Shown: positions 16,897 through 41,954 of the stretch, one piece after another
How positions within the stretch are numbered: the first letter of the stretch is position 1
Layout: each line of letters starts with the position of its first letter
Source: Buxus sempervirens
Lineage: Eukaryota; Streptophyta; Magnoliopsida; Buxales; Buxaceae
Direction: 5' to 3'
Length of the DNA stretch: 64,000 bases
Assembly (NCBI GenBank): GCA_947561395.2
Contig: OX387185.1
Location: 31,538,213 to 31,602,212 of the forward strand
Position numbers and translations under genes: made by a program
Notes under the pieces: model-generated
The model's database searches: none
What the model saw: the letters and a program-made list of their open reading frames with translations, nothing else
What the model was told of the DNA's origin: nothing

Positions 16897-17038
16897 AGAC
16901 TCAAGCTGGAAAATTTGAGGTTCCTAGGTAGTAAGACCATAGAAAACCCTGGGGAAATAGTGTGCGTACGTTAGATAGAACCATGAGGATTAGAAGATAG
17001 TTCTTAACTAATGTGGTATTTTGTGCTTACAGGTATAC

Positions 17039-18916: not shown

Positions 18917-18991
18917 GCCCGTATTTTCTCTACGGTCCGGCTTGCCCGTGAATGGATTCCGGTCCCCCTCGCCCGTGAATCAGATACGGTC
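18917..18991. repeat. Inverted-repeat array GCCCGTx-N7-xACGGxC, three units, 27-bp period
   Basis: Units of 21 bases begin at 18917, 18944 and 18971, exactly 27 bases apart. Each is a short inverted repeat of GCCCGT(A/G) with TACGG(T)C. It is a degenerate relative of the array at 19841 in the same LTR. Confidence 0.85.
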
Positions 18992-19840
18992 CAGGCTGGA
19001 CCGGCCTGAGTTTACGGGTGCTTCCAGTTCTGTGCTTTTGCTGCCGATTCTTCTTGGGATCACTCCGGCGGCTTTCTCAGATGTTCTGGTGACTCCAGTC
19101 GGTTTCTCCAGTTCCTTCGGATGCTTCAGTGGCTTCACTTGGCCTAAAAGGCCTTCTTTCTTCTCATGTTCTTTGGGTCTTCAATACCACAATGTTATAA
19201 AGTCCCTTTCTTCTTTCTTTAAATAGTTCATTTTTCAATTACTTTCCATTAAGAATGAAGATCAGATGAAGATAATAGGTTAGAAAGGATTTATTCCTCT
19301 TGTATAGGCAAGTGAAATCAAATGTTTTCATGCCTTTCTTCTTAGGCTTGTTTCACTTGCCTATTCTCCTTCTTTCCCATAAGGAAGCTTTCATTTGTAT
19401 TAGTGTACTTTGACAAAAACAAAGCAAGAAGGATTAGTAGTAAAGCAACAAGAATTTGAAGAATTATTCAAATAAGATAATCATGTATATATATGAAAAT
19501 TAAGAAGAGTTACCACAATGCTATTCCTCTTTGATGATGTAGTGGTTCTTGGATGATCCCGGCAGCGCTTCCGCGTCCTCCAAGATTTGCTGGGATGGAA
19601 GGGAAAGAATTTGGTTAAGGTGAATGGGTTCAAGGCCAAATTGAAGTGGATTTGGACATGGTATTGGGTGATCTTAAAGCATAGGGGTAGTTTGGGTATA
19701 AAAGAGGTTTAGGTTAGGAGTGGTGGAGGTTGAACAGCATTTGGTCGTGGGGAGCTCCAAGAGGGAGAGGGTCATGGCCAGGGAAAGAGGCTTGTTCAAA
19801 TGAGGGGGGTGGCCTCTCTATTTATAGGCAAAATTTTCGT

Positions 19841-20045
19841 GCCCGTATTTGAACTACGGGCATGCCTTGCCCGTACTTCAAGTACGGGCGTGCCTTGCCC
19901 GTACTTCAAGTACGGGCGAAAAACGAATATTTGCAATTATCGCAGATTCTTCCGTACGGGACGCGTGTCCCGCCACGCGTCCTCTTCTAGAAGCTTGCCC
20001 GTAGTTAAAGTACGGGCATGCCTCGCCCGTAATTCAAATACGGTC
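19841..20045. repeat. Inverted-repeat array GCCCGTA-N7-TACGGGC, five units, 28-bp period
   Basis: Units of 21 bases begin at 19841, 19869, 19897, then 19997 and 20025. Spacing is exactly 28 within both blocks. Units 2 and 3 are perfect palindromes with a short loop. On the transcribed (minus) strand the array lies directly upstream of the TATA box at about 19820. Confidence 0.92.
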
Positions 20046-20632
20046 CCGCACGTTTTTAAAATGTTTGGATTTCAAACCTTTATTCAATTTGGTTTATTTA
20101 AAGATTTTTATCCGATTTTTTGATTATTTTATTATAAAAACAAGATTCTTTTATTAAAATATTATTAAAAAATAAAGATATTTTATTAAATGATTATTTT
20201 ATTTATTTAACTCATTTATTCTGCTTTTTGCTGCTGTTTTGCCACATGGGCAGTTTTCTTTGAAACTTCAACTGCTCATAACTTCTTTATCCGGTGTCCG
20301 ATTTCAACAAACTTAGTGTCGTTGGAATCAGCTCGGAACCACCTATCCATTGGGATCAAGTTTGGCAGTTGAATTAGGGTCGAGCAAAAAGTCAACTTTT
20401 CGCCCCCCCAAAAGTTTGACCAGCTCATATCTTTCTCATCCGGACTCCGATTCCAGCAAATTCAGTTGCGTTAGAATCGTGTCGAAATGCTCTTTTCAAT
20501 GATGTAAAGTTTGATGGCCAAATTATCTTGAATCAAAAAGTCAATTTTTTGACCCCCTCAGGGTTTGACTTTTAGTTTGACTTTTCACTTTTCTTTATTT
20601 TGGGGGTGCAAAAATCAGGTGCTAACAGCAAC

Positions 20633-22087
20633 GGGCACCGCAGAGGCAGTAGGCACCCCAGAGGCAGCAGGCACCACCCCCACGTCCTCAGCAGACTAGA
20701 GTATATGCAGTAGCAGCTCAGGAGGATGAGCCTGAGGGAGGGCATGTCGAGGAGGCTCGTGAGGAGGAGCCAGAGGCGCCACAGTTGGTTGGAGGTATTC
20801 TTTTCATTCATGGCAGATCAGCCGTATGCTTATTTGATTCGAGTGCTTCTAGGTCTTTCATTACTCCTTTATGTGCATGCCGTATTGGTTTGGTTCCTTC
20901 CACACTCGAGTCCGAGTTACTTGTACACACACCATTGGGGGAAGCCACTAGAGTACAGACCGTATTTAGGGATTGCATGATCAGGTTGGGTTCTTTGGAG
21001 TTGCCAGGGGACTTGGTAGAACTGGAATTCGGGGAATTTGATGTGATCTTAGGCATCGATTGGCTTTTTCGGCATCATGTGAGCATAGATTGCTATAGGG
21101 GTACCATTATGGTGTGTCAGCCAGACCAGCCAGTGCACTGTTTCCGATGTGAAGGGTTGAGAACACGGATCAGTTTGGTAGCATCCCTTGAGGTTGAGGA
21201 GGCAGAGACTACGACACTTAGTCTTTCTAGTGTGCCTGTAGTAGTAGAGTTTGATGACATATTCCCAGACGATTTACCGGGATTACCGCCACCTAGAGAG
21301 GTGGAGTTCAGTATACGACTCTTACCTGGTACGGCACCTGTGTCCAAACCACCATACAGAATGTCACAACCTGAAAATCATGAGATGAAGAAACAGTTGG
21401 ATGAACTGGAAGTGAAGGGTTTTATTAGACCCAGTGTGTCACCATGGGGTGCACCGGTCCTGTTTGTCCAGAAGAAGGACGGGACGATGAGGATGTGTAT
21501 AGATTACCGCCAGTTGAATCAAGTCACTATCAAGAATAAGTATCCATTACCTCGGATTGATGACTTGTTCGACCAGTTGAGGGGAGCGTCTTGGTTTTCT
21601 AAGATCGACCTGAGATCTGGATACCACCAGTTGAGAGTAGCCCCAGAGGATATAGAGAAGACGGCTTTCCGTACTCGATATGGGCACTACGAGTTTCTGG
21701 TTATGCCTTTTGGGCTGACTAATGCCCCAGATGTTTTCATGAACCTGATGAATCAGATATTTCACACCCACTTAGATAGCTTTGTGGTTGTGTTCATTGA
21801 CGATATTCTAGTGTATTCTCGAAGTAGGGAGGATCATGTACGGCACCTCCGAACCGTATTGCAGACATTGAGAGAGCACAGATTGTATGCCAAGTTCAGC
21901 AAGTGCCAATTTTTGTTAAGAGAAGTGAGTTTCTTGGGGCATGTGATTTCCGGAGATGGGATAGCAGTGGACCCAGCTAAGGTTCAGGCTGTGGCAGATT
22001 GGCCTAAACCTTCGTCGGTGACTGAGGTACGGAGTTTCTTGGGAATGGCGGGTTATTATAGAAGGTTCATCAAGAACTTTTCCCGAG
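20633..22087 (+). pseudogene. Protease and reverse-transcriptase region of C1
   Basis: After B2 the element resumes with a Q/P-rich linker, a retropepsin-like stretch ([17 protein letters not shown]), the Ty3 linker ([18 protein letters not shown]) and [38 protein letters not shown], and the catalytic FIDDILVYS near 21795-21822. It runs on to GMAGYYRRF just before 22087. RT would copy the genomic RNA. A fossil copy. Confidence 0.9.
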
Positions 22088-24555
22088 TGTGAGACATGGA
22101 AAAATCACCTAGATGATTCCCTCCGTCATCACACGGGCTCAACAAAAATGGGAGAGTCGCCACCATTCAGTTTTAGGGTGTGAATGGACACAAAAAATCA
22201 TCATAAAGAGCAAAAAGGCAAAATCTAGAGTAAAAATAACTCTACTTGAAAATAAAATCTAGAGATGGGTAAGAGTATTAGATTATGAACGGGGGAAGGT
22301 GTTATGCACCCCCATTCACCCACACAAGGTGGTTGCCAAGTGTTGTTCATGCTAAAAAATAAGAAAGCTTGCTAAAATAATCAAAAACCTTGAAAAATGA
22401 TTAAACAAATGTATCATATTTCCAAATGAGAAATCCAATGAATTCCAGATCCTCTTTTATGTCAATATCACTTTTGGGACATCACTAATAGATGAAAATC
22501 AAAGCAAACCTTGAATAAAACCAAGTTGAGACAAATCCGGAAAATTTGATAAAAGATAGAGCCATTTGTCTTGAAATCATTCAAATCCCACTTCAATTGA
22601 ATCAAACCAAATCCATTTGAAAGATTATGATAAATAGAAGACTCATGCAAATTCAATCAAATCCGGTTAAAACCCTAGGAGTTATGCTCCTTTTACATCT
22701 GCTGTTGGAAATCGGTAAAAGTAACAAATGAGCAACTTTGGAAATTCATTTAGAAAAATTGGCTCCATATAAATCTGTGAAATTTGTCATGAATAAAGTA
22801 TGTAGGGCCATATTTTATATGAAACTAGCCTCATACAAAAATTCATCCGGATGTGCCTTGAGTGACCTCCCGAACAGGCCCCGAAGATCACAGATTAACC
22901 CAGAAATGTGCTGTTGAGCAGTTCTGAGTAAATCTGTTACCCACGACACAAATGGAATCAAAAAATTATAAAACCAACTGGATTTGAAATTAGACTTCCG
23001 AAGGAAAACACAAAAATAAAAATAACTCAAATTGGACTTAAAACGAACACATGGTGCTCATTTGAAGTGACAGGTTTAGCAATCAGACCTGAACTGTCCT
23101 GTCAACTTCGACTGAATGGTATCAAAAATCCCCTTCATAAAAATTGATGAAAGTTTACAGACATAAACTAGACAGACTCACCTTTCCCATGGCTTTAGAA
23201 TCACTCCAAAATTCATCCGGATGATGAAGTTATGAGTGTCCAAAATTAGGGTACAGCTGCTGTCTAGTTTAAACCTTTTTAAGCAAAATCAATCCCAAAC
23301 GGTGATCAAATGTGTGTGATCCGTGCAATATGAATCAAAATCATTCGAAAAATTGTTGAAGAACCTCTAGGTGGAAATAGAGCACAAGGTTGGCTCACCA
23401 TCCTCTCCGATTGGAGAGAATATGCTAAAAACCCTAAAATTGAGCAAAAATGCCCAAAACCGAGAGGTTAGACCTTGAGGTCTTCAATACTCAAAAAGAA
23501 CTTGCTTGAAATCAAATTAAAAATCATTGAGATATATCCCAGAATTGCTTGGGGCTATTTATTTGAGATCTATCACAATGAATGCAATAGATCCGAAATG
23601 CAAGCCGATTCCGTAAAAAACGGGTGCTATGTGTATATGTGTAAAAATCATTTCTTCAATCACAACATAACAACATATGGCATTCATATCAATCAAATGG
23701 GGTTCTCAAAAGACCTAGGGTTCCATTCCATTCTCGTTTTCCTTAGTTTTCTCTCCCCGTTTTACTGTTCTTCGAGATAGTCTTGGGGTACTTTGAGTAT
23801 GAAACGGTTTTCATAGAACAAAAGGCTTTTCAAAAAGGGTTCTATCATTAAAGGTCAATCCTTAGTCTCGTTTCCCCTAGATCCCGTCTTCACGTTTTAC
23901 GGTTAAAGGGAGTCTTGAGGTACTTTGAGTAGAGGAAGGGGTTGCATACACAAAGATTAGGCCATTATTCTACAGAAAGGTAGAAGAAAAGAACTAACCC
24001 TAGAATGTAAAGACAGAAAAATAAAGAGGGATTTAGGCTTACCTAGGTTTCTGGAAGCAGTGCGGCAGCGGTTCCCTTCTTTATTCGGAGCTCTTCAACC
24101 TCCAACTTCTTGGCCATTTGCTTAAGGAGGAGCCTCCTATTTATAGACAAAAGCTAGGGTTAGGGTTTGCATGATGCTAGACAAAAAATGATGTCTAGAG
24201 TCCACCAACCTAAACCCTAAAGCTATTTCTGATATTTCCACTCCTTAAATGAAGGATATGATGGTAAAAAGTGAAAACTCTCGGAAAACCCTAATTTTGA
24301 GCAAAAACCTTGTATCCAATAACTCAGATCGAATACAAGGGCACATATATGTATCCGACATATGTCGTCGGATACAATAATACCTGCTTGTATCCGACGA
24401 CTTGTGTCGGATAAAAAAAGATATGCTTGTATCCGATCTAAGTTGTTGGATACAAGAAAAAAATGCTTAAATCTCAAATTTTGTGCGGGTTATAAAGGAA
24501 AGAATGATTTTTGCTAATTATTCAATATTTAACTGTGCAATTTGGGGTGTCTACA
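22088..24555 (-). mobile_element. LTR A1
   Basis: On the minus strand it starts TGTAGACACCCCAAATTGC and ends ...CCATGTCTCACA. TATA box on the minus strand at about 24137-24147 (complement of ctatttatag), leader, donor-like CTAG|GTAAGC near 24040. A 39-bp-period inverted-repeat array lies upstream of the TATA. Flanks CCGAG / CTAAG are a poor target duplication (3 of 5), and the DNA on the two sides belongs to different elements, so the left border is set by comparison with A3. Noncoding fossil of a Ty3-like family. Confidence 0.75.
24309..24456. repeat. Inverted-repeat array CTTGTATCCGAC...GTCGGATACAAG, four units, 39-bp period
   Basis: Units begin at 24309, 24348, 24387 and 24426, exactly 39 bases apart. 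Each is an inverted repeat with arms of 8 to 11 bases; the second (TGTATCCGAC / GTCGGATACA) and fourth are the cleanest. It lies between the LTR A1 end and its minus-strand TATA box. Confidence 0.92.
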
Positions 24556-25399
24556 CTAAGACTATCCCACTGAAAAAATATGTATTTTTTGGATTTTAAG
24601 GCATTCGTTTTACTTGATTTGGTTTTATGAAAGTGAGGTTGAAAACTCTTATATGATTTAACAAGGCTTATGGCCTATGGTTTGAATGGCGGTGGTTGGG
24701 AATTCCACTAGGCCACGGTTGATTTGGTAGTGGATGGGGAATTTCACTTGGCATATGATATGGTTTGACAGTGGATGGGGAATTCCACTTGGGCCTAGTT
24801 TGTGCACTGAAGCGTTGGTTTTATGCATCAAATTGAATGGTAGTTTTGAGTTGTGAGTCGTCTAATGGGGCATTGTACTTAGTGTGGATCCATAGTGAGT
24901 CTAGGCAGTGTGTTAGTGTTGGCTTGTTAGCTTTAACGACCTTCTCCATACTACTTTCCGCTATGGGGTATCAATGAGGCCCTCTTGGGGTATGGAGGTG
25001 TTGCAGTAACCAACCGCCATGGGGTAATTTGCGGGATTTTATTGTGATTCATGTTATTTATGCGGCAATGGATGGGGCATTCTACTTGGCCTTGATTATT
25101 GGTTTAGTTGTCACTTGCCAGCCCATACGTGGGTGCTCCGCTTGCTGAGTTGTCCCTAGCTAGGTTTCTCCCTATAAGTTGTGTAGGTGGCAAATGGCAG
25201 TGATCATTAATCTAATTTAGAGACACGCTAATCCACGAGTCCTACCAAGACATGCTTGTAGTGTATGATTGTATTTATTGAATTAATTTCATGTGTTACC
25301 TGATTCACATAATTTGACTTGGATTTACACTTTATATTTGATAATATTATCATGGTGTTATAAAATTGCATAAACTACTTGTAGTCATGCATGTTTGCT
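24556..25399 (+). mobile_element. LTR C2, left piece
   Basis: Middle part of a C-type LTR: tggatccatag at about 24890, short repeats of tggatggggaattccacttgg (24660-24800) and the phrase gtcatgcatgtttgct at the right. The same LTR resumes at 32726 after the insertion of C3. A fossil fragment. Confidence 0.7.
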
Positions 25400-26339
25400 T
25401 GTAAAATCCTATATTTTAGTAATAAATAAATCAATAGAATAATTTGTTAATAATATGCAGGAGATGAAATTTTGGTTCAACCTGGAGGAAATCAAGATGA
25501 ACCGGAGATGATAGGAGAGCTTATATAAGGTGAGTTCCTGATTATTGACCAAATATAATTGTAATATAATAATTATTTGTGCTATGGTTTATATTAGTAA
25601 GAACTAATGAGAAATAAAATAAAAGATAAATCATAGGGGGAGTGGTCGAACCCAAGGAGAGTGGGTTGACCCGGAATTATTTGGTTTAAGGATTAAAGGT
25701 TTTTTTGTAATTGGTTTAAGGAAGGAGGGTATATAAGTAAAAGTCATTAAATAATAAACAAACCTAGTAGTGCATGGAGTTATTCACGTGGAGTTTAAAA
25801 GCTCAAAATAGAAGAATAGCCGCACGTCCTTGCTTGCTTCCTCTATTCTTCTCCTAGTTTCCTTGTGACTAAACCAAACCCTAAACAACTTGTTGGAGCC
25901 ATCGTAGAGAAGGAAGAAGGAGGATTTTCGTGCACAAGAACTCAGGTAATAGCCAAATAGAAATAAGTTTCTGTTCTGGATATTTGAGCATGTTTAAGAG
26001 TCTTAAAAACATGATTTTTCTTAACCCAGACGAGATCAAGACTTGTGAGATTATTGGAGTATATTTGGGGTGATATTTCGTTGCTTTTAGAGAAGATTTA
26101 AGTTCCTAAAACTAGGTAAGTAGTCCCATGACGCTTGCATAAAATACAAATTCGTGTTTAGACGACATACATGGTTATTCGGTGATTTGAAGCATTGTTT
26201 TTATTATTTACGATGTTTTAATTGTTGGGAATTGTTCTAGCATGTTTATAAAGCGTTTTAGAATGATTTAGAATGGTTTTGATGCATTGAATATTGAGTT
26301 GTGGAATTTTTATTGAATTTCATAAAGTTACGGATTTTT

Positions 26340-26520: not shown

Positions 26521-28599
26521 CAGTCTGTCAGATTTTTGGAAATTAGCTTTTCAACCTAGTTTTCACTACGGAAGTGTTTTTATCCAATTTTACCTATGTA
26601 CCATCAAGATTGGGATATTTGGGAAGTGTTTGCACTGGCGGATGTTGAATTTCAATTTTATAAAGATTTTGGGTAGATGTTTCTAAAGAGGCACTTTTAC
26701 TTGATTCCATTGTTCCAAAAGAGTTTACTTTTAACCAAGGTTGGTTTTGTGAGTTCATACACCTGTATTTGGGTGATATGAAGGTATTTTGTGCATTGAT
26801 GAAATCGATACACATTCAGGACATATTGGCACTGTAAGCACCTCATTTTTGCGCTCCCGGAAGAACCGGAAATGCAAACCCCGGACGGAAAGTCAAACCC
26901 TAAGGGGTGAAAAGTTGACTTTTTGATCAAGTGATAATTGTCCACCCCCTATATTATTGGATAGAAAATCTCAACACGGTTCTAACGCAACTGAGTTTGC
27001 AGGAATCAGAGTCTGGATGAAGGTTCTGTGGGCGATCAAACTTGAGTGGAGCCGAAAGTTGACTTTCTGCTAAAATCCGATCCAGATGCTTACCCCTATG
27101 TCATCGGATAGAGGGCTCCGACACAGTTCCAACGCAACTGAGTTTGCAGGAATCAAAGTCCGGATGAAGGTTCTGCGGGCGGTCAAACTTGAGTGGAGTC
27201 GAAAGTTGACTTTCTGCTAAAATCCGATCCAGATGCTTACCCCTATATCATCGGATAGAGGGCTTCAATACGATTCTAACGCAACTGAGTTTGCCCAGAT
27301 CGGAGTCCGGATGGAGAAGATATAAGCTGCCAAAGTTTCCGCGCAGCAAAACCGGCAAACTACACACATGGCAAAAAGCTGCACACGTGACGAGTTGCGC
27401 AGGAAAATATCTCAGGGATCAAATCCGTGAATATCCAAACGTACAAAATATCCTAGGAACTAAATCTGTAAAATCCAAGAATATCAGATTAAATTGAAAA
27501 TATCCAGGGACTAAATCCAAAAAATCGGATTTTCCGACCAATTAGCGGCCGCATTTATTATTTTTTCATCATTTTGCCACTCGCGCGAACGGGGCAAGCG
27601 TGAAACGCGCGGGGCGCCCGCTGTGCGCCAACCCGGCGGACCTATTCCCCTTGTCTATAAAAGCCGCGCGAGACTTCATGCAAAAGGGTTGGGAAATTTT
27701 TTAGTCGGGAGATTTTCTTTGGTTGGCCTTACTTCTCCTTCTTCTTCCTTCACCCGAAACCCCCCTCTTCTCATCCCTCCTTGCCTCCAAAAAACCCCAA
27801 GCGCCTCACCTTTCCTTCGTTCTCCTCCATTTCAACCTAAGTGAGTGGAAGCTTGCTACTGTCGATGCGGTAAAAGTGGAAGCTCCAATTGCTGTCCGGC
27901 TTCGAGGAGGCGTCTCCACTCTGCTCCAGAATTCAAGAACCACCAGGTAAGGGTCCTTGTTACTTTGGGTTACACATATATGAATATGCGATGTTTTCTA
28001 AAGGTTTTCATAAGCCGGTCTTATTCCGTGGTATAAGACCATTGCCATGAAAGCTTGCCATGCCTTTTCTTTTCATTGCCACTCGACGAATGCCACCAAG
28101 TAAGGAAGAGGAAGATGCATGTTCCCTCAAGTTCCCTTCATCTATTGTACCCCTGTAAACCCCCCTTCTCCTTCCCTTCTCCGAATGTCTGTGTGCATGC
28201 CCAGAGTTCAAAGTTCAGGTACAAGCGTAGGTGCAAAAATTATGTTTCCATCTTACGTAGGCGATCTCTGTTTGTTATTGTTTTTTTGTTGTTTTATTGT
28301 TTGCTAGGCTTGCCAACATGCTCCCCTGCCGCCTGCTGTTTTCTTGTTGTGTGCTTGCTAACATGCTCCATCACCCCCATTACCCCCTGTGTAGTCTGTA
28401 GCTATTTTTTATATATCATCGGGCTTGGTTTTGTTTAAAAGGAGAGCTGGAGTCATGTCTTTAAGTAGGTTAGAATAATTTCAAAGCATTTTTAAGTGTC
28501 TTCTGGGGGTGCTAGGAGCACCTGGGAGGTGTTACAGAGACTAGAAATGATCTCAGTTATGGAGTTTTCAGAAAAACAGAGAGTTGCATGCGCAGAGGG

Positions 28600-28885
28600 G
28601 TGTCCGCCGAGCTGGCGCTGAGCTCGCGCTTAGCGCTTTTGCTTGTGCCTAGCGCACGCTAAGCTCACGCGAGGCTCGCGCGAGGCGCTTTTTCGCTCGC
28701 GCTCAGCATGCGCGCGCAAGGGCCCCTTGTTCGCGCGAGGCTCGCGCTCAGCGCGGGCGTGCAACGGCCTTTCGTTCGTGCGAGGCTCACGCTCAGCACA
28801 CGCGCACAAGGGCCTTTCGCTCGCGCCTAGCTCGCGCGAGGCTCGCGCTCAGCGCGCGCGCGCAAGGGCCTTGCCGGTTCCGCCC
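28600..28885 (+). repeat. GC-rich word array (GAGGCTCGCGCTCAGCGCG)
   Basis: Tandem, roughly 60-bp units built from cgcgaggctcgcgctcagc and gcgcgcgcaagggcc, with many self-complementary CpG words. The preceding 150 bp resemble the C1 LTR at 15190-15280. Confidence 0.82.
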
Positions 28886-29514
28886 AGTGTTAGTGAGCTA
28901 GTCTCCCCTGGTAAGTGTTGGTTTTGTATATTTTCTGTGATGTATATTCTGTAACTTTTGCTAGATGTGGGTGTTATTTCCAAACCGAACCAAATAAACC
29001 AACAGGGTTTCCGGGTCACCCGGAAACCCAACTTGGGACATGGGCCATCGGTCCAATTTGGTACATTAGTGGACCTTCCAACGGGGCCCAGCAAGCCCAA
29101 CAAACTCTAAAGCATGCAAATAAGCAAGTTAAAGTAAGATTAACTGATTAAATCGGGCGGGCCAAACCTAATGCGGTCCACCCGAACCAGACTTGTGAAA
29201 TTGATGCATGAAATGTGTGGTTTGGCCGAGACCAAGGGCAAGGGCCTACCGGGCCCGCCAAAGCCCACCACCCGAACCAAGGAAGGGTGCAAACCCTAAC
29301 TTCCCGTAACTTGGGCTTTCAAGCCCTAATTAGGACTACGGGCCCCAAGCCCAGTGTCCAACCCATTTTTGGAAACTTAAAAAGATGAATCCACTAAATT
29401 ACTTGGCTACCATGTGGGCCCACCTAAGGGGCCCACAAACCAAGCCGGCCCACCTTTACATGAAAACCACTTAAATCCAATTTGAAACCAAAAGTAAAAT
29501 CAAGTGAACTAAAC

Positions 29515-31185
29515 TGATAAGTCATGAAAATACCACATTATAGCACATTAATTCCATGACTTATCTGGTTTTATTTCATATTCAATTCCAAATATTACTT
29601 AGAAATTGTCAAAATCTTTCATCTCTACATTTTATTTTCATTGTCTAAATTATGCCTAATTTGTTGATGTAGAGATACTCTTGGTGATTATAGAAGTCAT
29701 GGTTCAAACGGCGTAACAATCGGAGTCAATTTGTAGAAGATATCACGAACGTTCGCTGGCCGTTCGCCTGCCGTTCGAACGTTGGTGTTCCACAGAGAAA
29801 CCCGAGAGCAACGTTCGCTGGCCGTTCGCCTACCGTTCGAACGTTGGTGTTCCACAGAGAAACCCGAGAGCAGCGTGCGCTGAACGTTCGCCTGCCGTTC
29901 GAACGTTGGTGTTCCACAGAGAAACCCGAGAGCAGCGTGTGCTGAACGTTCGACTGTCGTTCGAACGTTGGTGAAAAATAGAGAAATTGTGAGCAGCGTT
30001 CGCTGACCGTTCGATGAACGTTCGAACAAGAGATGAAGAAACAACTTTTTGACTTGAGCGTTCGACCCGTGTTTGACGACCGTTCGAACGATCAAGTAGT
30101 AAATCCTGTTATAAAATTCCGAACTTTGAGGATTTGTTTCCTTTTTCTTGGGGATCTTCTTCTAGTCTTTAGGAGGATTTTTAGGGGTTTCTAATAAAGA
30201 AGATTAGGTCGTTTTTGGACTTGAAAGTGGTGGATATACAAGGAAAGGAAGTTCTCTCTTCCTAAGGAGTCTTAGAAGGCAAGTTTCTATTTTTCTCTTC
30301 AAGGGATTTCTGGGAAAGTTTGGAGATATAAAAAGGAGGAGCTTGGACGTGAAAAAGGGAAATTGATGCTGGAAACGTGAGGAAGAACCAGAGGAACGTG
30401 GGAGATCAAAGCTTGGACTCCATTAGTTTACTTCTTCTCTTTTCTTCTCTTTTTCTAATATACTCTGTTTTTAATGGTTATTCCTAGTTCAGTCATGAAC
30501 TAAATTCTTTTTCTAAGGCTTTGATGTAGTCTAAACATGATGTTTTATTTCTGAATATTATTGCTAATGGATTTGTGATTCACTATTTGAGTATTTTATT
30601 ATTGTGCTTAACCCAATTGAGTATTTGATCACCATTCAATTGTATTTGATAATTGTATTGAGACCGAGAGGAGATATACAATTTTAGTTCCTATGATAAA
30701 ATACCATACTCTACATGTTGATAGAGATATTGGCATGGTTTATGTAGCTTTGTGTTTTTGACATGAAAATCTACAGATCTTAATGTGCCTTGTTGCTTTT
30801 AAATTCATATAGAGATATAATGAGTTATCGTGGGAAGGTAAGTTCGTTGGTGCTCGAGAGAGACCATTGGATAGAATAGGGATTTTCGCTTTCAAATTGG
30901 ATTATAACATTCATTAACATGTGTATTCAAGAATTAATTCAGATTTGTTTATGATGAAATCAAATGCCTTAGTATTTTAAATCTCTTGTTAAATCTAAAT
31001 CTTATATTTTCTTAGGTGATAATTTTAATTGTTAGTTAAATACTCATCTCAATCTTTGATTATTCAAATAGAATTTAGGATAGTAATTTCAGTATTTAGT
31101 AGCTACCATTCCCTGTGGGTTCGACACTCTATTTCATCACTTTATTACTTGTTACGAATTCGTGCACTTGCGAAAAAGTACATCA
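29515..31185 (+). mobile_element. Solo LTR D
   Basis: 1671 bp, TGATAAGTCATG...AAGTACATCA, perfect duplication TAAAC (29510-29514 and 31186-31190). TATA box gatataaaaagg at about 30325. The 3' portion has the ccctgtgggttcgac ... gtgcacttgcg phrase typical of one group of plant LTRs (probably Ty3; clade not certain). U3 holds a 62-bp tandem repeat. Inserted in B3, so it is the youngest layer of this stack. Confidence 0.88.
29750..30030 (+). repeat. 62-bp tandem repeat rich in CGTTCGAACG, four to five units
   Basis: The word CCGTTCGAACGTTGGTG (or close variants) recurs at 29771, 29833, 29895 and 29957, exactly 62 bases apart. Each unit also carries further GTTCG and GAACG words, so each can fold on itself. 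Located in U3 of D, upstream of its TATA box. Confidence 0.9.
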
Positions 31186-32240
31186 TAAACCAAAGCCCAA
31201 AGGGCCTCTCAGGCTAGACTGAGGCCCACATGGGTACATGGGCTTGACTAAGCCCACCAAAGACACCGTGGGCCTTCCGACGGAGCCCACCCAACTAGAC
31301 TCAAATTACCTAATTAATCAAGATAAAAGCAATTAAAGGGACCCACACCACTCAGGTGGTCCCGCCAGACTTAACCAAGCTGCATATCGGATTAGGAATC
31401 GGGTGAGACCAAAGTAAGCTGACTCAAACCAGGATAAACCTAGGGGACCCGTCACCCGACGGGGTGGACCGGGGTGTCTACGGTCTTCCCCAGACCATAA
31501 CCGAGACCCTACTTAGAATCTCAAAAGTCGTAGACCAAAGCCTTAATAGACAAGATTAGGCACCCAGGTGTCCACCTGCACCCCATCAAGCGGTGGTGAC
31601 TCCAAACTTTCCCGCGCCGCGTTTCCGACGCGAACACAGGCCCATTGAAACCTAGAGTTTTGGACATATGACTTGGTGCATTTTGTTTTGGTTTTGGGTC
31701 ACTGGTGTGACAAAGCTGGTGCTTGATTTATTGTTTCCTGCATGGGCGGATTTGGTGATACAGATAAGGTTCTGTATTTGGTGGGTGTTATTGAGAAGTA
31801 TGTCCATTACCCTGGTTGGTTTTTCTCACTGTTGAGTGGCCTTAGAATTTATATGGATCCATAGAATAGCTAGTAAGTGAAATGTGTATTAGAGGGGTTT
31901 GAATTCTGTGTCTGAGGCATTCCATCATCTTGAGGATGGTACCGCTCCTGGATTGATCGGTCGCTACGTTACCCACTCCTGGATTGATTGGGCCGTACAT
32001 GCTAACTCATGGTTGGGTTCTTCCGTTGGTGTTGAATAACCAGACTGCAGAGCAGCTGGTCCATCGTAATTCAGTTAAGTAGCATATTGGCACATGTCTA
32101 CTCTCTTTTTCTGGTATACTATTTTGTGAGTCCCATGAGGTGGACAAATTGTATTTCATTGTTGTCTTGAATCTTATTGTGATTATTCGGATTAAGCGTT
32201 GCATATTTTGTTGTGGTCAACTATTTGCATGACTGCTTAC

Positions 32241-33639: not shown

Positions 33640-34860
33640 ACAATGATGAAGAACAGAAATCCCTTAAATGAATAGCACTGTTTAGAGAAAGTAATATACA
33701 GTTATCTAGATTGTAAATCAAAATAGTAAAAGCATGCTTTATCACAAAACAAAACCAGAGATACGATCTTGAGATGATATGCAATATCAGGTCTTATTTT
33801 GGGAAAAGAAACACAAGCACAATGGACAAAACAGGTTCTGAGCACAATGGACAAAACAGGTTCTGATTTCAATGATTTTCAACAGTGATATGCAATTCTG
33901 AAACAATATGTAGTGAGCTGTGATTTAGAGGGAACTAACAATCACTCGACATACAAAGCAGATTATGTTTTGTTACTATGATGAATTCAGATACAAAGAG
34001 ATAGAAAACACAGATTCATGAATTTACAAATTCACAGAATAGGAATAAGTAACAGACAGAGAAATAAAGATAAAACTATGCTGCAATCAAACACGAACAG
34101 AGCTAAAATAGGGACAGATAAAATTAAGAGCGATTAGAAATCTGTTTAAATCGAATTAAACTTATCGGTTGAAGTAGACCGAGACAAGGCTTGAGAAGCC
34201 TTTGTACTCAAAACATTAAAGCGCCCCTTTTCGGATGAAATCCTCAGCACAAAGGTTGTGGCACTCAAGCTCCCAGCATTCAACGGCCAAGGACGTCTGG
34301 TAGGTCGTACAACACTACCAGGTACAGACGAAATCTCTTGAAGTGGCACTCAGATCAGGAGGAAAACTTCAAATAGAGAATAATCAGAGGGTTCAGAAGG
34401 GATTCACTTCTACTCTGATCTCTGTTTTCTCTTTTCTCAGAATAATTGATAAAAGCAATCAAATGAGGGTTTCACGAATTCAAAATAGGGAGAAAAGAGA
34501 GCTGTTGAAGTTTGAAAGAAGGGGTTTGCAGATCTGATATCTTAGACCTGAACACAATGCAAATAAGAGGAGAATTAAATATCAACAGCAAATGAAGATA
34601 TCAACGCAGAGAACAAACTAGGGTTCGTCCCCTTCTCCTCTCCTCTCGTTTTTCAGAATTTTTAAAAGATGATCCTCAATTGAAATAGTAACCAACTTAA
34701 ATAGTTGAACCGGGCAAACCAGATGCCTGGTTTGTCGGTTCGGTTACAACTAAATCAAACGTTTAAATAACGTTATGAAATTATAACGTTATTTAACGTT
34801 AACAAATAACGTTAAAAAAAACCCCCAAAAAACGGAGTCTCTGTTTTGAGACTTTCCAAA
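33640..34860 (-). mobile_element. Unidentified LTR-like insert within A2
   Basis: On the minus strand it has a palindrome array (34715-34814), a TATA-like ctatttaag near 34697-34705, a CT-rich leader and then a stretch (34349-34146) open for 67 codons with no recognised product. A 25-bp tandem duplication lies at 33816-33865. Borders and family are uncertain; the layout resembles the U3 and leader of an LTR element. Confidence 0.35.
34715..34814. repeat. Palindrome array AACGTT plus CAAACCAG/CTGGTTTG
   Basis: Hairpin CAAACCAG-N4-CTGGTTTG at 34715-34734, then five AACGTT palindromes: AAACGTTT 34757, ATAACGTTAT 34767 and 34783, TTAACGTTAA 34793, TAACGTTA 34807. On the minus strand it sits just upstream of a TATA-like box. 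Confidence 0.85.
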
Positions 34861-36513
34861 ACAAAAATACAACATATGCTTGGTGGAAATTGTTGTTCTA
34901 TCATAGTAATAGTGATAACCAACACACTTTCACAAGCTGATTTGTGAAAATCCTCTTCATATAAATCTATGATAATTGGTGTGGATAGAGTAGGAAGTGC
35001 CCTCTTTTGAATGGCATGGGGTTCAACTAAAGATTCATCCATATGAGATCTTTGTGCTTTCACAAATACCTCAACACCATCATAGATTGACCATGTAATC
35101 TGCTATTGAGCAGTACAATGTCAATAAAGCATACAAAACTCAATATTGCTTTAAAAATCATGAAATCAGTTTGTTTTGAAAATAGATTTATAAAAAAGAC
35201 TCTGAAACAAGAATCAAACAAATCAGATTTCAATGAGCCAATTGTGCTTAGTTAAAGTGACAGGTTCTACAATCAGATTGTTGCAGACATGTCAAACTTC
35301 AATCAAACGTGTGGAAAATATATGTCTCCATAAAAATTATTCAAAATTTACAAGATTAAACTAGACTCTAATACCTTTTACATGCAACTGAAACTGGAAT
35401 CACTTAAAAATTTATCTGGAGGACGAAGTTATAAGTGAAACAAGCTGATGTTCAAATATAGTCCAGATTTGAAGAGTTTGAGTAAAATCAACACCAAAAA
35501 CATTAGATCTGTGCACTGAGCTCTCTAAATCCAATTTAAAACATTTAAAATGAAACAAGAAATTTTAAAAACATTTAGAGCAAAGGTTTGCTCATATCTC
35601 TAATGATTTGGAGAATAAGAGCCAAAACAACCCAAATTCACTTAGGATTCTTTATATCTAAGTAGATCTAGCCATAAGGCCTTCCCCAAAAGATCAAAAC
35701 CATTTAAAAACTTATGAAAGGGTCCTAAGATGTCGATTTGAGGCTAAATCCTCAAATCTACCATATTGAGAATGATAGATCTAAGGATTCATGCTTAGAA
35801 CTGAAGAAAAGTGATTGTGTGCACATATAAAGTGTGTAAAAAGTCAATAACATGGAGGAATTTTAGATCCAAAGCAATGAGTTGGCCTAGATCCATGAAA
35901 TTCCTCTTAATTTGAAGAGTAAAATCACATAAAATTGCAACTAAAAGATCCACAAAAAGAATGAGTCAAATCACATAGGTTCTAGATCTAGGGTCCATTC
36001 CATAGATTGTTTATCCTAGCTGTCTCTTCACTTTTTACGGCTAGAAATAAGCTTAAGCTACTTTGATCTAGGTTTGGGGCTTCATATATACAAAGACTCT
36101 ATCCTAGAGAAAGATAGAAGAGAGAGATTGCTAAAAATTGAAAGGAGAAGCTGAAAATTAAAGAGGAATTATACCTTGAGAGCTTTGATGCCTTGAGTGA
36201 TTGAGAGCACAATTGGGCAGAGTGTCACCTCCTCCAGCAAGAGCTTTTGATCTCAAAATTTCCAGCCCTTTGCATGGAGTAGAAGCCCTCTATTTATAGG
36301 CACAAGGAAGGACAATGCATGTGTAAGGGCAAAGCTAAAAGTTCTCTCTAGATCCTTCTAACTAAGGATCAAAGCGTGTTTTGGAGGAAAATAGAGAGAA
36401 TTTTGAGGGTATTTCAGCTAATCCAAGGCCTTCAGAGAGAAGTAGAGACAGAAATTAAACACGGATCTCGGCCTTTTTCAATTCAACAAAACTCATGAAG
36501 AACCTTATATATT

Positions 36514-36717
36514 ATACGGTGCTTCAAGCATCGTATATATAATACAATTCTCAACAATTTGTTCGCCACCGTATAATAAATACGGTGGCATTTAGTTATC
36601 CTCTCATGTGGCACAGCTAACATGGTATAAGGTAGAATCTTCCTTATGCCACATCGAATGCAATTTGCACTCATACAAGTCATGCTTCAGGGTAACTGCA
36701 TTGGCAATACAGTTACC
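36514..36717. repeat. Group of four short palindromes in U3 of A2
   Basis: ATACGGTGC/GCATCGTAT near 36514-36536; perfect CCACCGTAT-N5-ATACGGTGG at 36566-36588; nested ATGTGGCA...TGCCACAT at 36606-36654; GGTAACTG...CAGTTACC at 36691-36717. They occupy the place where A1 and A3 have their phased arrays. Confidence 0.8.
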
Positions 36718-36888
36718 CCCGTATTGATAATATGGTGAAATCAAAATGAATGTAACCATAATATTCATATGGTTCTCTATGATTTTTTATTTTTTGAAAA
36801 TTAAGACACTTGTATTAATACATGTATCTTATCTTGAAACACTTTCATCATTTCCTCATATTTTGGTGCAATTTAGGATGTCTACAAC

Positions 36889-37363
36889 TGTGACATCCCG
36901 ATCCCACATCAAAAACGGATGAAAGCCCGGTAGGGTATATGAATCATGAAGAACACTAAACCTAACGAGGCGCCTTTTAGGGAGAAAACCATGTAGGCTT
37001 AGGCTTAAAGCGGATAATACCTCGCTGGGTTGGGTCGTTACAAATGGTATCAGAGCTGGATTCAGGTCCAGTAGTCTGTGGCTGGTGTGGGTCTTGGCGT
37101 TGCCCATGGGAGGTGGTTGGATCAACGAAGGTGGTCCCATAAGGGGTTGGCAGGCTTCTAGGTGGCTATTGCACAGGGATGTGCAGCCCTGAAAGGGGGG
37201 GGGAGGGGGAGATTGTGACATCTCAATCCCACATCGGAAATAGATGAATACCCGGCAATGTATAAGAGTTAGGGAGAACACTTAACTTAGCGAAGCGCCT
37301 TTTGGGGACAAAACCATGCAGAGGCTCAAAGTGGACAATACCTCGTTGGGTTGGATCGTTACA
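36889..37363 (+). mobile_element. Complete TRIM (miniature LTR retroelement)
   Basis: Two short LTRs, 36889-37042 (154 bp) and 37214-37363 (150 bp), both TGTGACATC...TCGTTACA, about 80 percent alike by eye. A tRNA-Met primer-binding site TGGTATCAGAGC lies at 37045-37056 and a polypurine tract (g/a run) at about 37192-37213. Target duplication ACAAC is perfect (36884-36888 and 37364-37368). The internal part is only about 170 bp with no coding sequence; movement would have needed proteins from another element. It looks structurally whole. Confidence 0.93.
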
Positions 37364-37651
37364 ACAACTGCCCCCTCTTTGCTAGAATTGGACACAATGA
37401 ACAACAAAGAGCAAAAATGACCCACAAATTGCATCTTCCGAGATTTACCACATCAATCATAACTTACAAGGATCAAGGGTACTTTTGGAAAAGAAATTTA
37501 CGAAAATCTGCTAAAAGTCTCTAACCTTAAGGGGCAGTTCTTCTTCTTATTTAGATCTCATGGAGCTCTTGTAGCCATAAAATGGGATCTAAGTAAGCAA
37601 ATTTGAGAGACAAAAAGTGATTTTATGAGGACCTTTGTATTTATGATCAAT
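37364..37651 (-). other. Noncoding internal sequence of the A2 element
   Basis: Lies between the TRIM and C4. On the minus strand it leads into the polypurine tract next to LTR A2, so it is internal sequence of that element. No protein domain is visible on either strand. Confidence 0.5.
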
Positions 37652-37966
37652 ATTGATGTCAAAACCCAGATCCAGGTCTGACCCTCCAAGGCTCAGACCC
37701 GTCCTAGACCATCACAGGTGGGTCTTTATACCTGATAAAATGCAGAGAATTTAAAACTTTTTCCTAAGGCAAGTGAAGTGATAAACAGTTCATGCTTGTG
37801 CGTATCAAGTGTGTATTTGTATAAAAGAAATCTAACAAGTCACGGGGACTACAAAGTTATTTACAAAATTACTATGGTTACACAAAATGGTGGGTGACTA
37901 ATCACACCTCTCAGTTACAAAGGTTACATGTCCAAAAAGAAACTACAACATGTATAAAAAGAAATC

Positions 37967-38103
37967 CTAAGTGGGTCTATAGTAATCCTCCTCTCTATAC
38001 CCAAAAGCTTTTTCTTTTCCTTTATCCCCAGTCCGGTCCTTCACACCAGATGTTGATGGATCTGAAAAATAAGATGATAAACAACTGTGAGACGGATGGC
38101 TCA
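37967..38103 (-). other. LTR module in C4: stem-loop, acceptor, small E-E-D-Y-Y frame
   Basis: On the minus strand: TGAG-N8-CTCA (38103-38088), acceptor tttttcag (38064-38062), frame ending ...FGYREEDYYRPT at TAG 37969-37967. The third strongest example of the module. Confidence 0.6.
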
Positions 38104-40169
38104 GTAAGCAACACATGCATGCTCAGTTGAAAACACAGTTTAGGCATATGTCATTCGATGAAACCATGACATGTGGTTAATTGAAATATTGCGAAAACAA
38201 CGACAACTTAGTGTCATACAATAAGTGCATGCATGTGCGTAGGTGTACAGGCCATCTATTTATAACAATCATATTCATTGGTCATCATATTAGACGTCTC
38301 AGATTTCCAAGCTTGCATGGAGGATGTTAGTTCTCTCTCTCCAAGTTAGGGTGAACAATGGTCCACTACCCCCAACTGAGATGAACCACACACACTACCC
38401 ACCAAGACTTACTATTGTGGAGGATGCTAGTTCACTACCACCAAATTGAGATGAACAATGGTTTACTACCCCTAATTGAGGTGAATCGCACACACTACCT
38501 GTAAAACCTCGAATTTTAACCTAATAAATAAATAAATAATAAATAAAAGAAAATATGAGTTAAGTCCTAGTTAAAATAAAAAGTGAAGATTTAGAGAATA
38601 ATTAATTCGAATAAGTCATAAGTTGAAAATAAAGAAAGAATTTTAATGAAATTAGCCTAAAAGAATAAAAAGGGTATTTTGGTAATTTTTAGAAAAGGGT
38701 AATTAATAATTAGATCATTAAATAAAAACTAGATTTAGAAAATAGAAGGAAATAATTTATTTTGACAATTTAGAAATTAATAAAAGCCTAAAGTGGGAAA
38801 AAGGGTAATTAGGAGATTTCACGTATTAAATTGGAGAAAATAAGGTTTTAGGTGATATTTAATGTTTAAGTAATTATTAGGCACGAAATAGGTTGTAAAG
38901 AGGAGTTTAGATGATAAGAGATTTAATTAATATTGTTTAAGTTGAAAAATAGAAGGTGGAGAAAAAGTAGGAATTAAATTAGAAGGTGTTAGACATTAAT
39001 TAGACCATGGTTGGGTTAGCCCAAACTAAAGTAGCCAATTAGGGGTTGGTTTAGGACTTCTAAAGCCTAATATAAATAGGAAACTAAGGTTAAACAAGAG
39101 GGAAATTTCGTGGGTTATTATTGAGAGAAAAGAGGGAGAGAAAGGAAGAAGGTGGCTAATGGAGATGTCTGGCCAACCATCATCAAAATATGATCGGGGA
39201 AAATCCGTACGGTGGATCGCCTTCAAATTTGGAGGCTTTGTTCATCACTAATGGAATTACATTGTGTACGGTGGAGATTTGAATTAGAAGACTCTAGCTT
39301 AGTGCGTTTGGGAGCAAAAGTAAGGTCCAGAATTAGAAGTTTCAATGGAAGAAGGATTTAGCGTATAAGGCAAGTAATAACCTTGGAAAACGTGAGGAAT
39401 TGCATGATTTGGTTTTCTGTGATTTTATATGGTTAGAATGGATTAGACGGAACTGTATTTACATGGAATCAAGTTGCTTATATTTTCATGATTGGTATTC
39501 TTGATGGATTTATCAAATTAAAGAAGAAAGCTTAGTTGGATTATGTAAATAAAGGTATGAGGGTATTTAATTTATAAAAATTACTCTAGAAGGCTTAGGT
39601 ATGTTTCAGAAGGTTTGTAGATTAATTTAGACCAAGAAAACATATGGCAAAGGCATAAAAATCTGAACTTTAGAAATTTGGAAATTTCTGTTTAATTTTG
39701 CACGAGCGCCTAGGATCGCCCAGCCCTATAGAGGTCAGCGCTCTAAGTAAAATTGGCAGATTTTGGGGATTCGGTAATTTGAATAAATGTACAATGATTT
39801 TTCTGATTAGTTGAGCATGTTAGCATCATTATAAGGACCTAATTAAGGTATAAAAATTATAAAATTAATTTGGAAAGATTAAGCAATACATTGAAGGTTA
39901 TAATGAAAGGTTTGTCTATAAAAGGGGCAAAGGGTATGGATATTGCTAGAAATAATACCACTAGTGCTTATAGCTTATAAACATCTTCTAAACTTTATTT
40001 TAGGTCTGTAGAACATGCTGGGGAAATAAAATACAGAAAATTTAAATAGAAACTAGCTTAGGCGTTAAGATAGGAAATTGGATTCTAATAAAAGGGATTA
40101 ATTAAAGGAAACTCTAAGTAAGATTTGTTTTACTTTATTTGAGCTTTCAATATGAATGTTGGATTCTGG

Positions 40170-41954
40170 TATGAGACATGGGGAAAAATCAATTCAAAGA
40201 CTTCCTCATCATCACACAGGATTGGTTAAAAACAAAGAGTCGCCACCATTCTGTTTAGGTGTAAATGGACACCAAAATATCAAATAAGCACAAAAGGCAA
40301 ATTTAGGGTAAAAATAACCCTCTAGAAAAAAAACAACCAGAGATAGGTAAGGGGATTAGGTTATGAACAGGGGAAGGTGTTAGGCACCCTTATTCATCCA
40401 CACAAGGTGGTTGCCAGGTATTGTTCACGTTAAAATAAAGGAAAAAGGGCTTGCTAAAAAAAGACAAAATGTATGGTTATTTCATACGAATAGCCTGATT
40501 GATCCAGAACTTTCAAATATGACCATACCATTCCTAGGGCTTCATGATTAAAATAAAATTGAGATAAAATCAAATAAAACCAATTTAAAGTGAAAACTTC
40601 AAAAATCTGGCCTCAAGTTAAATTCTAGAAATCTAGAAAAATATGATTTTTATAAAATATTGAAGAATTGAACTTGAACAATCCAGGACATAGGTATAGC
40701 CCAAATTTCACATTAAATCAAGAAATCAAAACAAAAAATACCCACGTTGATGAAGAACATCAAAAGGGGAGAACTTAGACCGTAGGGTCTTCTCTCAATA
40801 ATGACAAAGGACTCAAAAACCACTTCATGAAACCCTAGAAGTTACTTTCAGGCTTCTGGATCCAGATCTATCATATTGATTATGATAGATCTAGGATCTT
40901 AGCCTAATATCACAAAAATCACGAAAACAGTGATGTAGGTGCAAAGGTGTGAAAAATCTCAATTTTAGGAGAAAAAGAGGATTTCATGCTATCAACATCA
41001 TAGACATATGATTCATTCAGATTCAACATAAAAACAATTAAAACATGATCAGGATATCAAAAGCAACCACATCTCACAGATTAGAGCACATGGAGGTCTA
41101 CCCTACGGATCCACCTGTTCTCTTTTCCCCTAGCTCTCTTTTCACGTTTTACGGCTAAAGAGGATTCTTGAGGTACTTGGAGATAGGTTTGGTTATACAA
41201 ACACAATCAAAGGCTTTATTCTAAAAAAAGGAGAAAAACATATATGGGGTTCTATTCTAGGGATCCACCTGTTCCCCTTTCCCCTAGCTCTCTCTTCACG
41301 TTTTACGGCTAGAGAGACTCTTAAGGTACTTAGAGACAAGTTTAGGAATACAAGATAAAAGATGGCCTTATTCTACAGCAATGGAGAAAATCCTATTACT
41401 TCTAGAATTGAAGACAGAAAATGAAAGGGAAAAGGGACTTACCTGGATTGAGCAAGCAGAGCAGCAGGGATTCCTCTCTTCTCTTGGAGCTCCTTGGACT
41501 TCAAATTTTCGTGGCCTTTTGCTTGAGAAGAGGCCCTCTATTTATAGGCAAACACAGGGGCATGGTTGGTCCAACGTTTGGCAAGATAGAGTTTCAGATT
41601 GAGTAAAACACTAGGATAATGCCCATCCATGGCCAACAAGGATATTTCGAACGAATAAAAGAGATAATTCGCTCATTTAAAGATATATTGGACTAAAGAT
41701 AAAGCTCAGAAATCGAGAAAGGATAAAACTCGCACAAATCTAATGTGCCCGTAAATGATTTACAGTCCAATGGTGTCCGTATATGCATTACGGGCGCTGC
41801 GTGCCCGTATACAAAATTCGGGCATGCTCAGCCCGTAGATACAATACGGGCAAGGCTTAAATTATTGATTTTCATGCATTTTTGGCCTGTTTTAAATCCC
41901 AATTACATGTTTTCATTATTTTCTCATTTTGTAGTGCAATTTGGGGTGTCTACA
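40170..41954 (-). mobile_element. LTR A3
   Basis: Minus-strand TGTAGACACCCCAAATTGC...CCATGTCTCATA, about 1785 bp, flanked by TCTGG / TCTAG (4 of 5). TATA box (complement of ctctatttatagg) at 41536-41548, donor CCAG|GTAAGT near 41441. It shares with A1 the right-end phrase gtgcaatttggggtgtctaca, the gagtcgccaccatt block and the cacgttttacggcta phrase (twice, 41135 and 41297). Its U3 array uses a different word from A1. Noncoding fossil. Confidence 0.82.
41747..41851. repeat. Inverted-repeat array GCCCGTA-N7-TACGGGC, four units, exact 28-bp period
   Basis: 21-base units begin at 41747, 41775, 41803 and 41831, each a GCCCGTA / TACGGGC inverted repeat with up to 2 changes. Same word and same period as the array in B2, a different LTR family. 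On the transcribed strand it lies about 200 bp upstream of the TATA box. Confidence 0.93.

Follow-up and report, generated by a model that had tools for sequence, protein, structure and literature searches.

Results

LTRs of the A, B and D families

The window, by which we mean the full 64,000-nt stretch of DNA numbered from its first letter, holds LTRs that we assign to families A, B and D. The B copies are solo LTRs: B1 (11122-13998, minus strand) and B2 (18192-20627, minus strand) are flanked by target-site duplications of ATACC and GCAAC, respectively, and B3 (26833-31638, plus strand) lies between GGCAC and GGCCC, which match at 4/5 positions. Nested inside B3 is a solo D LTR (29515-31185, plus strand) that runs from TGATAAG to TACATCA, has a target-site duplication of TAAAC and contains a TATA-like site at 30325. 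B2 sits between the gag/zinc-knuckle and the protease/RT coding sequences of another LTR retrotransposon; with the Pfam families RVT_1 and RVP_2 as a guide, we take this coding sequence at 17-22 kb to be probably gypsy and presume D to be Athila-like. The first-pass annotation had also set apart a family 'C', which we rejected because its segments, including 18237-18540 in B2, belong to the B LTR as its 3' portion.

Target-site duplications were found neither for A1 (22090-24555, minus strand), which has the ends TGTAGACACC...CATGTCTCA, nor for A3 (40172-41954, minus strand). The 5' tip of A2 (36870-36886, minus strand) is abutted by a 475-bp TRIM-like insertion (36889-37363; target-site duplication ACAAC). 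Past this insertion, with the two flanks read separately, lies the polypurine tract AGAGGGGGCAGT, and A2 is therefore taken to be a 3' LTR. No internal coding region belonging to the A, B or D copies was detected in the window; searches for tRNAs and for Rfam families at gathering scores returned nothing, the A tip had no match in viral contigs, and the literature matches listed for the LTR-end motif GTGGCGACTC included none that was related, judged by title.

Five clusters of inverted words share a CCG-N11-CGG layout

The arrays of evenly spaced inverted words in these LTRs are real. The B2 array (19841-20045, minus strand) comprises five 21-bp units of GCCCGTA-N7-TACGGGC in two runs (19841-19917 and 19997-20045), with half-sites at 14-bp steps, six at 19841-19911 and then four at 19997-20039. 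It is also part of a large inverted repeat of ~227 bp, in which 19830-19889 pairs with 20056-19997, and the TATA box follows at 19818-19830 (TGCCTATAAATAG on the LTR strand, minus). The same word recurs in A3 (41747-41851, minus strand) as eight alternating GCCCGTA/TACGGGC half-sites at exact 14-bp steps, with one extra weak, 2-mismatch match at 41798 between the half-sites of 41747-41845; inverted-repeat symmetry is only 71.6 percent over 81 bp. In A1, four 23-bp units of TATCCGAC-N7-GTCGGATA, 2/4 of them decayed, recur with a period of 39 rather than 28 (24309-24456, minus strand), and the whole 148-bp array likewise forms one large inverted repeat. In the A2 array (36508-36589, minus strand), the unit CACCGTA-N7-TACGGTG lies at 36567 and TACGGTG is paired with CATCGTA at 36515; a decayed unit lies farther away at 36717-36737. 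B2 carries a second cluster (18917-18991, minus strand) of three GCCCGTR-N7-TMCGGTC units at steps of 14 and 13, located ~0.8-0.9 kb downstream of the TATA box and outside U3. Most arrays lie in U3 upstream of a TATA box as originally described, but this cluster does not. The gap between array and TATA box is not fixed and ranges from 10 bp in B2 through 159-205 bp in the A copies to ~234 bp in D.

In A1, A2, A3 and B2 the half-words alternate in orientation, and each CCG lies 14 bp from its partner CGG (CCG-N11-CGG), flanked on each side by two bases that vary among the four word sets. This arrangement matches 19 times in the window, where ~2.5 matches are expected, and 15/19 fall within these four arrays and the second B2 cluster; two separate sets of 200 block shuffles gave means of 2.6 (largest 10) and 2.5 (largest 7). 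Among CCG-CGG spacings of 0-25, N11 is the commonest in each of the five clusters, although in A2 this amounts to one site only. Against 300 dinucleotide shuffles per region, with regions picked after inspection, inverted-repeat content exceeded all 300 in B2, A3, A1, A2, D and B1 and 299/300 in the AACGTT insert described below; the score of the second B2 cluster was matched by 5/300. CpG observed/expected ratios are 1.24-1.86 in the B2, A3, A1, A2 and D arrays, 0.98 in the second B2 cluster and 0.85 in B1, compared with 0.58 for the window.

The arms of these units are kept more closely than the sequence around them. Pairwise identities for arms, loops and linkers are 0.97/0.67/0.37 in B2, 0.86/0.45/0.21 in A3, 0.90/0.24/0.39 in the second B2 cluster and 0.83/0.26/0.49 in A1, a contrast that is partly built in because the arms were chosen for being repeated. 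These values cover four arrays, leaving out A2, and array-edge sequence was scored as linker (one edge within the B2 set and one per array end). The arm mask nonetheless ranked first among all cyclic shifts in 4/4 arrays of this set. Across 18 units and 130 pair positions, leaving out the oppositely oriented A2 pair at 36515/36529, arm changes were one-sided in 17 cases and two-sided in one. CpG is retained in 32/36 half-sites.

Other layouts and the origin of the arrays

The words occur where the first-pass annotation had put them: GCCCGTA/TACGGGC in B2 and A3, TATCCGAC/GTCGGATA in A1, CACCGTA/TACGGTG in A2, CGTTCGAACG in D, and five copies of AACGTT in an insert within A2 (34758-34813, minus strand; steps 11, 16, 10 and 13). 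Its proposal that words change while the layout stays is upheld for A1, A2, A3 and B2, with the second B2 cluster; it does not extend further, because the palindromes of D, the insert and B1 are laid out differently and the B3 slot lacks palindromes. The D array (29748-30091, plus strand) is built of 62-bp tandem units containing AACGTTCG and CGTTCG at 11-bp steps, and its CGTTCG copies are direct, unlike the CCG group. B1 has a single G-box palindrome, CCACGTGGC-N7-GCCACGTGG (13294-13318, minus strand). The B3 slot (27575-27645, plus strand) is CGCG-rich (CpG observed/expected 1.37) with no inverted-repeat excess, as 300/300 shuffles score as well. The words do differ between sets, but the four CCG sets have their core in common.

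Within a single LTR family, different words occupy roughly the same place, in U3 upstream of TATA, and one word is common to two families (A3 and B2), both as first noted. The further proposal of an exchangeable cassette did not hold up. From 5' tip to TATA, alignments among the A copies score little or no higher than shuffled sequence (z 0.6, 2.3 and 2.4, the A1 slice starting 2 bases outside the LTR), those among the B copies do not outscore it (z -3.3, -1.6 and -0.6), and the B3 TATA flank does not align with those of B1 and B2 (z -0.1 and 0.7). Because U3 is barely alignable, no cassette edges are visible or demonstrable, and we set a clean cassette swap aside as unprovable; for the same reason, nothing beyond the word can be shown to link the A3 and B2 arrays by descent. 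Nor do the loops support a recent A3-B2 transfer, since their similarity does not exceed that of shuffled loops (0.36 vs 0.31, p 0.28).

Discussion

A candidate array of dimer binding sites

That several elements share one spacing and a CCG core points to sites bound by a paired protein. Of the roles first proposed for the arrays, a binding array is the best supported, because the half-words and their spacing persist whereas loops and linkers diverge. We therefore favor, at roughly even chances, a reading of the CCG arrays in A1, A2, A3 and B2 as cis-regulatory, dimer-bound site arrays of LTR promoters. Two inverted half-sites (two bases, CCG, two bases) 14 bp apart would together be recognized by a single dimeric protein. 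This would most likely be a host transcription factor by which transcription at the downstream TATA box is driven or licensed, and the word changes may be adjustments to different members of one protein family. Tandem duplication, inverted duplication and template switching inside palindromes probably enlarged and reshaped the arrays; what the sequence shows directly is the large-scale inverted symmetry of A1 and B2. Such reshaping would let array RNA fold into long hairpins, which, by analogy with maize Sireviruses, might be a source of small RNAs. The fixed CCG-N11-CGG spacing offers a concrete probe with which to seek a candidate binding protein.

Several observations sit less comfortably with a binding array. 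The steps of 14, 28 and 39 bp do not equal whole DNA turns, the gap to TATA varies from 10 to 205 bp, one B2 cluster lies downstream of its TATA box, and a hairpin or a mutational reading would account equally well for the large inverted repeats that A1 and B2 form. The evidence comes from one window and five clusters.

The arrays could instead be a mutational product with no protein reader, in which template switching during reverse transcription or replication, together with inverted duplication, homogenizes and multiplies quasi-palindromes. Template switching between inverted repeats is reported to homogenize arms (PMC8604942) and to create and repair hairpins (PMC8794818), and A1 (24309-24456) and B2 (19830-19889 vs 20056-19997) are large inverted repeats, with complementary loops in hairpin partners (6/7 outer and 5/7 inner in A1, 6/7 outer in B2). 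We nevertheless regard this as unlikely: it does not predict a single CCG-N11-CGG spacing across five clusters with differing words, periods and unalignable flanks, large-scale symmetry is slight in A3 and the downstream B2 cluster, and 17/18 arm changes were left unrepaired. If the arrays acted as structured RNA in U3 at the transcript 3' end, or as small-RNA feedstock, strong folding would be in keeping, and fold z scores reach -15.6 in A1, -14.0 in B2, -5.4 in A2, -4.1 in A3, -3.7 in B1 and -3.5 in the insert; palindromes are small-RNA hotspots in maize Sireviruses (PMC5311732, PMC10760457). Yet D (-1.2), the downstream B2 cluster (-2.3), the region downstream in B3 (-1.9) and the B3 slot (+0.8) fold weakly or not at all, compensated change occurred once vs 17 one-sided changes, 6/17 of which still form a G-U pair on the strand tested, and a hairpin does not require a fixed CCG core, making a role in RNA quite improbable.

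Comparisons with published elements provide further alternatives. QuinCent of the gypsy element RLG_Quinta is described as a single cryptic inverted repeat of 162 bp that is linked to nucleosome positioning and lies upstream of TATA in a non-conserved half of U3 that is unalignable with the sister family; it has a homologue in a copia LTR and so is held by its authors to have been replaced from there, moving between families (PMC11302176). By analogy, our arrays might be nucleosome-positioning segments, as the inverted repeats of A1 (148 bp) and B2 (~227 bp) occupy the same U3 place at a QuinCent-like scale of ~160 bp, but D and B3 lack such a repeat and the parts of that report cited here describe no repeated short words; we consider this very unlikely. 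Least probable to us is that the arrays would be targets of an element-encoded, sequence-specific anti-silencing protein, with words turning over alongside the protein, as suggested by VANC. Its motifs, like our CpG-rich arrays, are short, tandemly arrayed and non-coding and differ between related elements (PMC5735166, PMC10398659). In the portions of these reports on which we draw, however, they are direct repeats rather than spaced palindromes and do not lie at an LTR promoter, and VANDALs are DNA transposons with their own VANC gene. We saw no such gene in the A or B copies, which are solo or truncated and thus could not have contained an element DNA-binding gene. A further scenario, which we find improbable, is that several LTR families independently carry arrays for a dimer family reading CCG-N11-CGG, with flanking bases shifting array-wide through co-evolution of array and protein, whether a host activator or a VANDAL-like element anti-silencing protein.

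Relationship to known promoter boxes

The first-pass annotation knew of no system exactly like this one; published precedents exist in QuinCent and in the repeated motifs of Sireviruses. For palindromes and small RNAs in Sireviruses, the principal study is Bousios 2016 (Genome Res), used here through papers citing it (PMC5311732, PMC10760457). Sirevirus (Ty1/copia) LTRs carry palindromic, CpG-rich and divergent RM boxes a short way upstream of TATA, which were described as confined, among Ty1/copia elements, to this genus (Bousios 2010, PMC2829016). As in our arrays, many short CpG palindromes cluster shortly upstream of TATA, words vary by element yet can be near-identical despite low overall homology, and CpG is abundant (CpG islands there, an observed/expected ratio here). 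The gap to TATA is ~37 bp after the island in Sireviruses as opposed to 10-205 bp here, and by our count of Table 3 (PMC2829016) 12/13 consensus words contain CGG-N4..6-CCG, whereas ours are CCG-N11-CGG units whose 7-base loop is free. Similar palindromic boxes are thus already known, and what sets ours apart is a spacing unlike the 13 consensus words published there. In the window, CGG-N4..6-CCG occurs 21 times (shuffle mean 7.7, largest 16), scattered, with 2/21 in the array regions tested.

Other Sirevirus marks were sought in the window. The 3' LTR mark is the polypurine tract AGGGGGAG followed by AT/TG, while A2, the sole LTR with a visible tract, has AGGGGGCAGT/TG; AGGGGGAG occurs at 25635, 37204 and 46988, none adjoining an A, B or D LTR tip. 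For the 5' junction CA/ATTGG-TATCAGAGC, A[TG]TGGTATCAGAGC had no match in the window, where the A, B and D LTRs are solo or truncated. Over the terminal 80 bases of six LTR ends, C runs are at most 3-4 long (the slices of B1, B2 and D being offset by 1-3 bases from the true end), a comparison with the polyC-rich Sirevirus integrase signal by run length rather than exact motif letters. If LTRs without Sirevirus marks bear boxes of another fixed spacing, palindromic promoter boxes would be a general device of plant LTRs.

Tnt1 reportedly has a hypervariable U3. In plant LTR elements more broadly, U3 differs between subfamilies and bears their regulatory motifs (PMC10794571), but the 14-bp alternating CCG layout is not known to belong to Tnt1-type U3 and does not figure in the cited portions. 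The listings and passages of openly licensed papers that we surveyed describe no LTR arrays of CCG-N11-CGG, and GCCCGTA-N7-TACGGGC matched 70 stretches of viral contigs, with no array among the matches listed because each stretch is one site counted on both strands. A VOZ/NAC reading, VOZ being the sole plant factor compared, was rejected on spacing: its site GCGT-N7-ACGC (PMC6321167) has 0 matches in the window. The shorter CGT-N7-ACG occurs 5 times, 0 of them in arrays, and CGT-N9-ACG occurs 16 times, with 10 in arrays.

Ordered palindrome arrays in two LTR families

The palindrome arrays in the U3 of A1, A2 and A3, copies of one LTR family, and of B2, from another, are real and ordered, each unit consisting of a half-word (arm), a 7-base loop and the inverted half-word, with linkers between units. 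A half-site map places eight consecutive half-words of A3 in alternating orientation at exact 14-bp steps, as it does runs of six and four in the B2 U3; a further B2 cluster at 18917-18991, downstream of the TATA box, has steps of 14/13, and inside the pairs of A2 the step is 14. The 8-base words of A1 stand at step 15, yet their CCG-to-CGG distance is again 14. Across these LTRs the words GC-CCG-TA (A3, B2), CA-CCG-TA (A2) and AT-CCG-AC (A1) keep a constant CCG core within variable flanks. The claim that layout stays while the word changes thus holds only for A1, A2, A3 and B2; their layout is not shared by D (a solo LTR nested in B3), the AACGTT-bearing insertion in A2 (34758-34813), or the corresponding U3 slots of B1 (a single G-box palindrome) and B3 (a CGCG-rich stretch).

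CCG-N11-CGG occurs 19 times in the window, against 2.6 (largest 10) and 2.5 (largest 7) in two sets of 200 block shuffles each, with 15/19 inside the five clusters and 4/19 outside. One of the latter is at 27339; the other three (11336, 18386, 31456) mark one homologous, array-free place that B1, B2 and B3 share in the conserved 3' region of their LTRs. The reverse order, CGG-N11-CCG, which equal-step alternation also generates, is present 10 times (six in the B2 and A3 clusters). A 79/80-bp tandem repeat (2.4 copies, 13097-13286) separates the B1 palindrome from the B1 TATA box, and GCTCGCGC-rich tandem stretches within LTRs at 28590-28880 and 15300-15560 have inverted-repeat content not above shuffles (reached by 24/300 and 56/300).

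Constraint on the arms and turnover of U3

Between-unit identity in the four arrays tested is 0.83-0.97 for arms, 0.24-0.67 for loops and 0.21-0.49 for linkers, a contrast somewhat overstated because arms were picked by their own repetition; the arm mask ranks best among all cyclic shifts in 4/4 (permutation p <= 0.0002). Recent duplication alone would hardly leave near-random loops between arms in such exact steps. Since 17/18 arm changes are one-sided, the word rather than base pairing seems to be kept. Taken whole, the A1 and B2 arrays also form large inverted repeats whose RNA folds strongly (z -15.6 and -14.0), and inverted duplication and template switching therefore contribute to the form of at least two arrays. 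Folds are weaker in A2 (-5.4), A3 (-4.1), B1 (-3.7) and the insertion in A2 (-3.5), and unremarkable downstream in B2 (-2.3) and B3 (-1.9), in D (-1.2) and in the B3 slot (+0.8).

Inner U3 was aligned from base 41 to TATA-60 in A copies and from base 400 to TATA in B copies, and scored over shuffles. The A copies reach z 0.6, 2.3 and 2.4 there; elsewhere they align at the 5' tip (6.4-9.5), around the TATA box (8.0-9.5) and in the stretch after it (10.2-14.5). The first 340 bases of the B copies align (z 20.0-21.6), and from 400 to TATA no alignment exceeds shuffles (z -3.3 to -0.6). The inner U3 has therefore turned over in its entirety in both families, and the array-only swap implied by an exchangeable cassette cannot be demonstrated. 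The first-pass annotation was right that A1 and A3 differ in word (AT-CCG-AC vs GC-CCG-TA) and that A3 and B2 share both word and period (GC-CCG-TA, 28 bp). Recent exchange between the latter is not favoured, since neither their loops (0.36 vs 0.31 shuffled, p 0.28) nor their linkers (0.30) are clearly related; convergence or old exchange would fit better. By our own arithmetic, four free bases coincide by chance in 1/256 per pair compared, CCG given; with few pairs, the single common word is therefore no more than suggestive.

Relation to published systems

No described system of this kind had been known to the first-pass annotation; similar devices are published, and the arrays are a variant of these, not a new kind of system. 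Bousios 2010 (PMC2829016) describes Sirevirus boxes as clustered palindromes with a CGG-CCG core, accompanied by CpG islands and by a TATA box ~37 bp past them; it notes that elements with little homology can bear almost the same boxes, and terms the boxes Sirevirus-specific relative to other Ty1/copia elements. Later work in maize, as relayed by citing papers, associates the palindromes of Sireviruses with hotspots of small RNAs and with fast evolution, and PMC11302176 reports a gypsy element whose inverted-repeat U3 segment derives from a copia LTR. Sirevirus spacing is CGG-N4..6-CCG, whereas the window's arrays have CCG-N11-CGG in equal alternating steps; the Sirevirus polypurine tract is missing in A2, the only array LTR in the window with its tract visible. 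CGG-N4..6-CCG is itself over-represented in the window (21 vs a shuffle mean of 7.7) but scattered, with 2/21 in the array regions tested.

The arrays are probably functional. On their best explanation, which we rate at about an even chance, they would serve at the LTR promoter as arrayed binding sites of a dimeric protein; co-evolution of array and sequence-specific protein is improbable.

Elements and nesting

The window consists of plant LTR elements nested within one another. In self-comparison and pairwise BLAST the previously separate B and C segments merge into one single LTR, with copies at 11122-13998 (B1, minus strand, duplication ATACC), 18192-20627 (B2, minus, GCAAC) and 26833-31638 (B3, plus, flanks matching 4/5), the last enclosing D (29515-31185, plus, TAAAC). 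B2 lies between the gag/zinc-knuckle and protease/RT parts of another LTR element. LTR-element coding at 17012-22092 (gag/zinc knuckle, protease, RT) stops at 22.09 kb and picks up again at 49.76 kb with RNase H and integrase (49758-51209), as if split by ~27.7 kb of nested insertions; the two might belong to a single copy.

A1 (22090-24555) and A3 (40172-41954), both minus, carry the same tips, and a search for target-site duplications at the two found none. A copies are diverged, with 71-78 percent identity in matching stretches of A1/A3 and 64 percent in A1/A2 (self-comparison). A2 is taken as a 3' LTR because a polypurine tract stands past the 475-bp TRIM-like insertion at its 5' tip (36886). 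This TRIM-like element (36889-37363, duplication ACAAC), which adjoins the A2 tip, has a TATCAGAGC primer-site match at 37048 and a AGGGGGAGATTG tract at 37204. A 2.9-kb repeat pair (5378-8309 and 54668-57598) is 87.9 percent identical, its first copy containing BED-type zinc-finger coding.
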